Positions 44,072 through 47,049 of a stretch of DNA of 64,000 bases are shown in pieces. Source of the stretch: an uncultured Pelagibacteraceae bacterium (GTDB lineage: Bacteria; Pseudomonadota; Alphaproteobacteria; Pelagibacterales; Pelagibacteraceae); assembly GCA_902614125.1 (NCBI GenBank), contig CACMJW010000001.1, forward strand, positions 124,001 through 188,000, read 5' to 3'. How positions within the stretch are numbered: position 1 is the stretch's first letter; the number at the start of each line of letters is the position of its first letter. The notes beneath the pieces are model-generated. The model was given only the letters and a program-made list of their open reading frames with translations. It was not told where the DNA came from and did not search any database. Position numbers and translations under genes: made by a program.

Positions 44072-44488
44072 TTGACAAAAAAACTTTCAGATAAAGATAA
44101 AAAAGACTGGCAAAATTTCTTAGAAAGCTCAGAAAAGTTAGAAATCAAAGACAAAGAAACTTTAGATCACCAGAATAGAATTGGAGAGAAAGTTATAGAT
44201 CTTCATGGATTTACTCTTGAGGAGGCAAATCAAAAAGTTTCTGAATTTATCCAAGATTGTTATGATCAAAATGTAATAAAAATAAATATAATAACTGGAA
44301 AAGGACTTAGATCAAAAAATTTTAATAATCCATATCAATCTAAAGATCTAAGTATACTAAAACACTCTGTACCTAACTTCATTAAAGATAGCCCTCACCT
44401 AATGTCAAAAATTATCAAAATTGATCAACAAGCTGTTGATAGTCCATCAAAAGGAAATTTTGAGATTTATTTGAAAAAGAAATTATAG
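44072..44488 (+). CDS. Smr-domain protein
   Basis: A 138-aa protein starting with TTG directly after the Tim44-like gene. Its second half is an Smr domain with [17 protein letters not shown] (the DLHG motif) and [11 protein letters not shown] (the TGKG motif). Smr domains act as RNA endonucleases, and some rescue collided ribosomes. A stretch of about 20 residues is inserted after GKGLRS. In many alphaproteobacteria mltA sits between tim44 and smr; it is missing here. The stop overlaps hslU by 6 bp. Confidence 0.88.
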
Positions 44489-45850
44489 AATAAACTTAGA
44501 AAGATCGGTATCTTTTACTAGTTCACCAATATTTTTCTTAATATATTCAGAATCCACTGTTATTTTCTCACCAGCTCTATCTGTAGCTGTAAAACTAATT
44601 TCATCTAGTACTCTTTCGATAATTGTATGAAGACGTCTTGCACCAATATTTTCAACAGTTGTATTAACTTCACTAGCAATATTAGCAATAGTATCAATAC
44701 CGTCGTCTGTGAATTCAAGGTCTACATTTTCAGTTTTTAAAAGTGCCTTATACTGTTTTATCAAACTGTTATCTGGTTCTTTCAAAATTCTTTTAAAATC
44801 ATCACTGTTTAACGCATCAAGTTCAACTCGAATTGGAAGTCTTCCTTGAAGTTCTGGTAAAAGATCAGACGGTTTTGCTAATTGGAATGCTCCTGAAGCA
44901 ATAAATAAAATATGATCAGTTTTGATAGGACCATATTTTGTGCTCACTGTTGTTCCTTCAATCAAAGGCAATAGATCTCTTTGAACTCCTTCTCTTGAAA
45001 CATCTCCTCCAACACGATCAGTTCTAGCTGAGATCTTATCTATCTCATCTAAAAATACGATACCGTTATTTTCTGTTGAATTTTTTGCAGCTTTTATAAT
45101 TTTATCTTGCTCAATTAACTTATCAGACTCTTCATTGATTAAAATTTCGTGAGATTCTTTTACACTCATTTTCTTCTTCTTTGGTTTTTGTCCCATTGAT
45201 CTACCTAAAACATCAGAAATATTTATCATTCCAACATTTGCACCTGGCATTCCTGGTATTTCAAAAGATGGCATTTGATTACTTTCAGCTACAGCAATTT
45301 CAATCTCATTGTCATCTAAATCTCCGTCTCTCAATCTTTTTCTAAAACTTTCTCTGGTAGCAACACTTGCTTTGTTACCGACTAATGCGTCCAAAACTCT
45401 TTCCTCAGCTAACTTTTGTGCTTGTGCGTGAACTTCTTTTCTTTTCTTTACCTTTTCCATCGAAATGGCAATCTCTAACAAATCTCTTACAATTTGTTCA
45501 ACATCTCTTCCAACGTAACCTACCTCTGTAAATCTTGTCGCTTCAACTTTTACAAAAGGAGCTTCAGCAAGCTTTGATAGTCTTCTTGAAATTTCTGTTT
45601 TACCAACTCCTGTTGGTCCTATCATAAGTATATTTTTGGGCAGAACTTCATCTTTCATATCTCCAGATAAAGCCTGTCTTCTCCATCTATTTCTTAATGC
45701 TATAGCTACTGCTCTTTTTGCTTTGTTCTGTCCAACAACAAATCTATCTAACTCTGAAACGATTTCTCTTGGGGAAAGTGAATTTTCAATAGTTGAATTT
45801 TCTTTTGCAACTTTTTCTTTTGGAAATGTAGTGACGTTAGTTTTTTCCAT
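44483..45850 (-). CDS. hslU: HslU, ATPase subunit of the HslUV protease
   Basis: A AAA+ unfoldase of 455 aa feeding Hsl[27 protein letters not shown] begins the ATPase, Walker A is [14 protein letters not shown], the pore loop is within [10 protein letters not shown], Walker B is [11 protein letters not shown], and the intermediate domain lies between. The C-terminus ends DTDLSKFIL, the conserved tail that docks into HslV. It follows hslV by one base and shares its promoter. Confidence 0.98.
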
Positions 45851-46367: not shown

Positions 46368-46373
46368 GCACTA

Positions 46374-46402
46374 TAAATGGATACTAAATTTGATAGTTCA
46401 AG
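46374..46402 (-). promoter_or_regulatory. Candidate heat-shock (sigma-32) promoter of hslVU
   Basis: On the minus strand CTTGAAC (46402-46396), 15 nt, then CCATTTA (46380-46374) closely matches the RpoH consensus. Six nt separate the -10 element from the hslV ATG, placing the expected transcription start at or within a base or two of the A of the ATG. There is no room for a ribosome binding site, so translation would be leaderless. Confidence 0.65.
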
Positions 46403-46418
46403 CCCAGGTTTAGTATTA

Positions 46419-46447
46419 TTGCCATAATTGAATTATATATATATACC
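46419..46447 (+). promoter_or_regulatory. Candidate sigma-70 promoter of the his operon
   Basis: TTGCCA (46419-46424), 17 nt, TATACC (46442-46447), ending 11 nt before the hisB ATG. AT-rich sequence gives many chance matches, so this is tentative. No leader peptide with a histidine run or attenuator hairpin is visible. Confidence 0.35.
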
Positions 46448-46458
46448 TCTTTAAAATT

Positions 46459-47049
46459 ATGAAGCGTAAAGCAAAAATAAGCAGAAAGACAAAAGAAACC
46501 AACATCAATGTTGAACTAAACATAGATGGAAAAGGTAAATACAAAGTTGACACAGGCATAGGATTTTTAGATCACATGCTCGAACAACTATCAAAGCATT
46601 CTTCAATGGATATGAATATAAAAGCCAAGGGTGATACACACATTGATCTTCATCACACAACAGAAGATACAGGCATTGCAATCGGTGAATGTTTAAAAAA
46701 AGCATCTAAAAAGTTTGTTGGTATTAAAAGATATGCACACGCAATGATACCAATGGATGAAACGCTTACTCGAGTTGCAATTGATGTATCAAATAGACCT
46801 TACTTAATTTGGAAAGTGAAATTAAAAGTCGAAAAGCTTGGAGAAATGGATACAGAGCTTTTCAAAGAGTGGTTTCAAGCTTTTTCACAAGCAGCAGGAA
46901 TTACTTTACACGTTGAAAATATTTATGGTGATAATAGTCACCACATAATTGAATCTTGTTTTAAAGGCTTAGCAAGATCTTTAAGAGCTGCATTGGAAAT
47001 GGATCCAAGGAACAAAACTACTATTCCTTCTACTAAAGGCTCTTTATAA
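46459..47049 (+). CDS. hisB: Imidazoleglycerol-phosphate dehydratase
   Basis: Catalyses the sixth step of histidine synthesis; 196 aa, the monofunctional form without a HisB phosphatase domain. Metal-binding motifs are [29 protein letters not shown] and [18 protein letters not shown]. It opens the hisB-hisH-hisA-hisF-hisE operon, whose genes are spaced by 5 bp or less. hisG, hisD, hisC and hisI are elsewhere. Confidence 0.97.

Follow-up and report, generated by a model that had tools for sequence, protein, structure and literature searches.

A conserved RpoH-type promoter at the start codon of hslV and a predicted leaderless hslVU mRNA in Pelagibacteraceae

The hslV-hisB region

The window, i.e. 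the whole stretch of 64,000 nucleotides that was analysed, was found to contain the hslVU operon of an uncultured Pelagibacteraceae bacterium and, divergent from it, the hisB gene (Table 1). All three products, HslV, HslU and HisB, were identified at equivalog level. The gap between hisB and hslV is 91 nt and contains the hslV promoter. The hslV start codon is secure, as matches to the HslV equivalog models begin at residue 1-2, the ATG immediately precedes the TT with which mature HslV begins after processing, and an in-frame TAG is located two codons upstream.

In the genus to which the window belongs, HslV starts directly at M-TTI. TTI is preceded by an N-terminal extension, with WHG or a similar sequence at its end, in the second family of the order (L035-L056), in a sister genus (L294) and in most other alphaproteobacteria sampled. 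This extension is reminiscent of a proteasome-type propeptide, which the genus appears to have lost.

Read on the minus strand from 46402 to 46365, the sequence directly 5' of hslV is CTTGAA-N16-CCATTT-N7-ATG (GGG CTTGAA CTATCAAATTTAGTAT CCATTT ATAGTGC ATG ACA ACA). The first-pass annotation had divided the same letters as CTTGAAC, 15 nt and CCATTTA ending 6 nt before the hslV ATG, which is exact and equivalent to the division used here.

Table 1. Genes and promoter features of the hslVU locus, in coordinates of the window
Feature	Coordinates	Strand	Basis or remark
hisB, divergent neighbour	46459..47049	+	NF002109
hslV, HslVU peptidase subunit, 171 aa	45852..46367	-	NCBIfam equivalogs NF003964 and TIGR03692; ATG directly before TTIVLVRK
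hslU, ATPase subunit, second operon gene	44483..45850	-	TIGR00390; ATG 1 nt after the hslV stop codon
-35 element CTTGAA, RpoH-type promoter of hslVU	46397..46402	-	Sequence; invariant in 99/99 distinct family upstream regions
Spacer, 16 nt	46381..46396	-	Length 16 in 99/99; equals that of groES promoters of the genus, read by eye
-10 element CCATTT (family consensus CCAYYT)	46375..46380	-	Family conservation; aligns with groES CTATAT
Discriminator ATAGTGC, 7 nt, -10 to ATG	46368..46374	-	Length 7 in 99/99; last bases variable, final base a pyrimidine
Predicted transcription start, A of hslV AUG	46367	-	-10 geometry, purine preference at starts and -1 pyrimidine; alternative 46368, giving a 1-nt leader

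A perfect match to CTTGAA-N16-CCATTT occurs once in the 64-kb window. However, box pairs with up to two mismatches were not commoner there than expected by chance (12 found versus a mean of 18.1 in shuffled sequences), and a generic sigma-70 scan was uninformative (13 found versus 12.4 expected). As the boxes are no commoner in the window than in shuffles, they are weak evidence when taken alone, and it is their conservation that carries the case.

Two other elements were seen beside the promoter. A conserved minus-strand block, TATATCAATAAT or TTATGGCAATAAT, lies upstream of it (46403-46458) and may belong to the promoter of the divergent hisB gene. An inverted repeat, ATACTAAA/TTTAGTAT, flanks the promoter in this genome, but was judged by eye to be missing from many relatives and was dropped.

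Conservation of the hslV promoter in Pelagibacterales

The hslV upstream regions of 136 loci were compared, namely 34 from this genome and its genus, 80 from named Pelagibacteraceae records and 22 from the second family of the order. Removal of duplicates by sequence reduced the 114 same-family loci to 99 distinct 60-mers; some of the 80 may share species with some of the 34, and SAR11 upstream sequences are related, so that the family counts represent non-independent events.

All 114 same-family loci have ATG as the hslV start, and CTTGAA, a 16-nt spacer, CCAYYT and a distance of 7 nt to the ATG were found in each of the 99 distinct 60-mers. The first two C residues, the A and the final T of the -10 element are invariant in these sequences, with T at the fourth position in 94 of 99 and C or T at the fifth, and several positions of the spacer are also invariant. 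The last bases before the ATG vary, apart from the base at -1, which is a pyrimidine in 91/99 (C44, T47, A5, G3) versus 56% of those genes in this genome that have an upstream gap of at least 40 nt. Counting only distinct 7-mers, 48 of 55 end in a pyrimidine (binomial p about 1e-6 against 56%, ignoring relatedness).

Among genomes of the genus, the looser pattern TTGAA-N16-CYAYNT-N7-ATG was detected in 117/121. A stricter pattern, in which the distance to the ATG was also shorter by one base, was present in only 1 of 151 genomes, though its -35 and -10 letters also differ, making it a rough control for spacing only. In the second family, the boxes were found 8-9 nt before that family's own, different hslV ATG, which opens the N-terminal extension (MENQQ...WHGTTI), indicating that the promoter stays close to whichever ATG is used. 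The first-pass annotation had staked its proposal on conservation of the boxes and their spacing across relatives, and both are retained.

No SD-like (Shine-Dalgarno-like) site was found upstream of hslV in any of the 99 distinct family sequences, versus about 20% of the genes in this genome, which agrees with the earlier statement that there is no room for a Shine-Dalgarno sequence before hslV.

Promoter class and predicted start of transcription

The groES gene of the same genomes is preceded by CTTGAAA, the same spacing and CTATAT, followed by a leader with GGAG. As groES shares the boxes and the spacer but has a leader, the boxes are the signature of a class of promoters, and the original assignment of the hslV promoter to the RpoH type is upheld by this match in box type and 16-nt spacer within one genus. 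RpoH promoters of Alphaproteobacteria, including that of Ehrlichia chaffeensis hslV (PMC3836757), likewise have a TTGA-type -35 element, a spacer of about 16-18 nt and a CYATNT-like -10 element, with hslVU among the targets. However, many genes with RpoH-type promoters, SAR11 groES for example, have a leader with a Shine-Dalgarno site, whereas the SAR11 hslV promoter touches the start codon. In E. coli, the same genes are transcribed from a sigma-32 promoter, but the transcript has a 5' leader.

An rpoH gene is present in the genus, as matches to TIGR02392 above the cut-off were found in most genus genomes and in 30 of 41 genomes of the order, but a TIGR02392 search did not recover one in the 81%-complete assembly that includes the window. 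Sigma-70 and sigma-32 are reportedly the only sigma factors of SAR11 (PMC13198564). Most second-family genomes (L187-L192) encode two RpoH-like sigma factors versus one in the genus of the window.

It is rather unlikely that the hslV promoter is read by sigma-70 instead of RpoH, in which case hslVU would still be leaderless but would not be a heat-shock operon. The lon, trxA and regA genes show near-zero spacing with weaker -35 elements (TATTGCA, ATTGAW, YTTGAA) that sigma-70 could possibly read. However, hslV has the full CTTGAA-N16-CCAYYT, and groES of the same genomes carries the same class of boxes. CTTG at -35 and a C upstream of -10 are described as marks of RpoH promoters in rhizobia (PMC4842269), and the Ehrlichia hslV promoter has been classed as sigma-32 (PMC3836757).

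Transcription starts mapped for sigma-32 promoters in Ehrlichia chaffeensis, hslV included, lie 4-7 nt from the annotated -10 hexamer in 6 of 7 cases (PMC3836757). Compared with the 7 nt found here, this leads to the expectation of a start at the A of the AUG or at an adjacent base. The first-pass annotation had placed the first base at the start codon, and the spacing gives the same prediction, to within about 1 nt.

Leaderless or near-leaderless (0-2 nt) transcription of hslVU is well supported by the comparison of upstream regions. It is probable that a sigma-32 promoter, held at a fixed distance, gives rise to an hslVU mRNA that is leaderless or has a leader of no more than 1-2 nt, with use of RpoH, the exact start, leaderless translation and coupling to hslU as its predicted components. 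RNA polymerase with RpoH would take the A of the hslV AUG as its first base, or one no more than 1-2 nt before it, and 70S ribosomes would recognise the 5'-terminal AUG of the mRNA. Given the position of the hslU ATG directly behind the hslV stop codon, hslU would be translated by translational coupling. A stress-specific translation mechanism is not implied by this layout. Folding of the first 40 nt gave a minimum free energy of -2.3 for hslV in the window (genome median -1.9) and a median of -0.6 in the family, with no clear signal.

A different origin for most of the transcript, either from inside hisB or from another promoter in the gap that is read by sigma-70, is unlikely; the RpoH-type promoter would then be real, but the main hslVU mRNA would be leadered and non-SD, with the start at the ATG a minor one. 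The conserved AT-rich block upstream of CTTGAA in most relatives could be taken to point in this direction, but the block may instead belong to hisB, on the opposite strand. An extra promoter upstream may also yield a longer transcript; in other bacteria, many genes with leaderless mRNAs are transcribed from a leadered start as well, as reported for about half of the leaderless units of Z. mobilis (PMC7566282). A leadered mRNA that lacks an SD-like site would not be odd in a genome where only about 20% of genes have one. However, if the main start were further upstream, there would be no explanation for a distance of exactly 7 nt, for the pyrimidine at -1 or for the near-invariance of the two boxes.

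Predicted near-zero leaders in other Alphaproteobacteria and other SAR11 genes

Leaderless mRNAs are already known to be widespread in Alphaproteobacteria, among which the hslV layout is real, conserved and recurrent. Published counts of leaderless mRNAs are 171 for S. meliloti (PMC3616915), 375 for Caulobacter (PMC4117421), 192 starting exactly at the start codon for B. japonicum (PMC4842269) and 119 for Z. mobilis (PMC7566282). These come from the same bacterial class and share with the layout described here a promoter abutting the AUG and the lack of a Shine-Dalgarno sequence, but they were identified by 5'-end mapping, whereas the SAR11 hslVU mRNA is predicted from geometry and conservation. 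The parts of the four reports available do not name hslV as leaderless, and no description of a leaderless hslV, or of mapped SAR11 start sites, was found in the open-access literature searched. The acuR-acuI-dddL operon of Rhodobacter sphaeroides is also a leaderless alphaproteobacterial operon, though catabolic and not a heat-shock one (PMC3017554). SAR11 is among the most abundant groups of ocean bacteria, and hslVU gives it a strongly conserved operon whose mRNA is predicted to be leaderless.

A sample of 76 hslV upstream regions from the class, about one genome per family and hence far more independent than the SAR11 set, was scored for RpoH-like sites with a hand-made consensus, taking as the start the ATG nearest to the mature HslV N-terminus. 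A strong site was found in 47 of the 76 regions, versus a mean of 5.3 and a maximum of 11 in shuffled sequences. The distances from the -10 element to the ATG were bimodal, at either 7-13 nt or at least 25 nt, and none of the 47 sites lay 14-24 nt from the ATG. Sites 5-10 nt from the ATG accounted for 14/47 (shuffles: mean 0.33, maximum 3), and the view of the first-pass annotation that such a design is unusual could not be maintained, given that this many alphaproteobacterial hslV genes with an RpoH-like site share the near-zero spacing. An SD-like site was present in 1/16 of the near cases, one of which (L294) comes from the family of the window, versus 18/31 of the far cases (Fisher p 0.0006). 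For groES in the same class, 0/15 sites were near and an SD-like site was found in 28/28; the contrast in distance between hslV and groES gave a Fisher p of 0.014.

A near-zero leader would accordingly be one of two recurrent alphaproteobacterial solutions, next to a leader with enough room for a Shine-Dalgarno sequence. The pattern of two leader classes suggests that hslV repeatedly takes one of two initiation routes; the gene is thus well suited for asking in which circumstances, and for what reason, bacteria dispense with leaders.

In the genus of the window, the principal chaperone genes groES and dnaK have leaders with Shine-Dalgarno sites, indicating that the hslV layout is no general heat-shock design and correcting a tempting story. 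Near-zero spacing was seen at four further genes. The lon gene (upstream regions L263-L284) has TATTGCA-N16-CCATAT-N7-ATG in nearly all genus loci, and regA (ActR/PrrA/RegA family) has YTTGAA or ATTGAA, 16 nt, CCATAT and 7 nt to the ATG in most genus genomes. Spacing at trxA is near zero in most genus loci, while in most of the second family this gene is leadered with a Shine-Dalgarno site. The near-zero spacing of tldD in the genus is more variable, and neither the lon nor the tldD layout was found in the other family of the order.

The first-pass annotation had gone further and read the layout as a special design for translating a protease in heat stress. It is very unlikely that hslV, lon and tldD are leaderless in order to be selectively translated when canonical initiation fails while the chaperone genes are leadered. 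The division itself is seen in the genus, where near-leaderless hslV, lon and, with more variation, tldD stand against groES and dnaK with their leaders and Shine-Dalgarno sites, and translation of leaderless mRNA in E. coli has reportedly been enhanced under oxidative stress (cited in PMC9031893). However, trxA and regA have the same layout as hslV, and the other family does without it at lon and tldD. In Caulobacter, translation of leaderless mRNAs during normal growth is as efficient as that of leadered ones (PMC4117421), and the E. coli MazF model of stress ribosomes has, according to PMC9031893, not been reproduced by other laboratories. The claim of a special stress design is therefore not upheld. 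It is likewise improbable, though it would be of consequence, that the RpoH-type leaderless protein-turnover genes of SAR11 (hslVU, lon, tldD) use a different initiation route from the leadered chaperones; if true, proteolysis and refolding would be controlled apart during stress, at translation initiation.

The reading of hslVU as leaderless or near-leaderless was also set against the rest of its genome, of which 1.13 Mb of the 1.18-Mb assembly was scanned using crude ORF calls (at least 80 aa, first start codon). TANNNT peaks 6 nt before the ATG of genes with an upstream gap of at least 40 nt (29 versus 17.9 expected), and no such peak was found at operon-internal genes. A distance of 6 nt is the reported position for leaderless genes in bacteria (PMC3160421). 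Box spacing gave 8 near-leaderless candidates versus 1-6 at control spacings, a slight excess, and only the conserved candidates were relied on. By these patterns, hslV is a member of a minority class of predicted near-leaderless genes in the genome.

The product of regA (L223:8718-9281; C3:28718 in this genome) belongs to the small number of response regulators that SAR11 has, and the gene has an RpoH-like, near-leaderless promoter. CTTGAA-N17-TTATAT-N7-ATG was also found in this genome (C1:210604) at a gene for a Bax1-I family membrane protein (PF01027; weak match to the FtsH modulator YccA), which is possibly near-leaderless.
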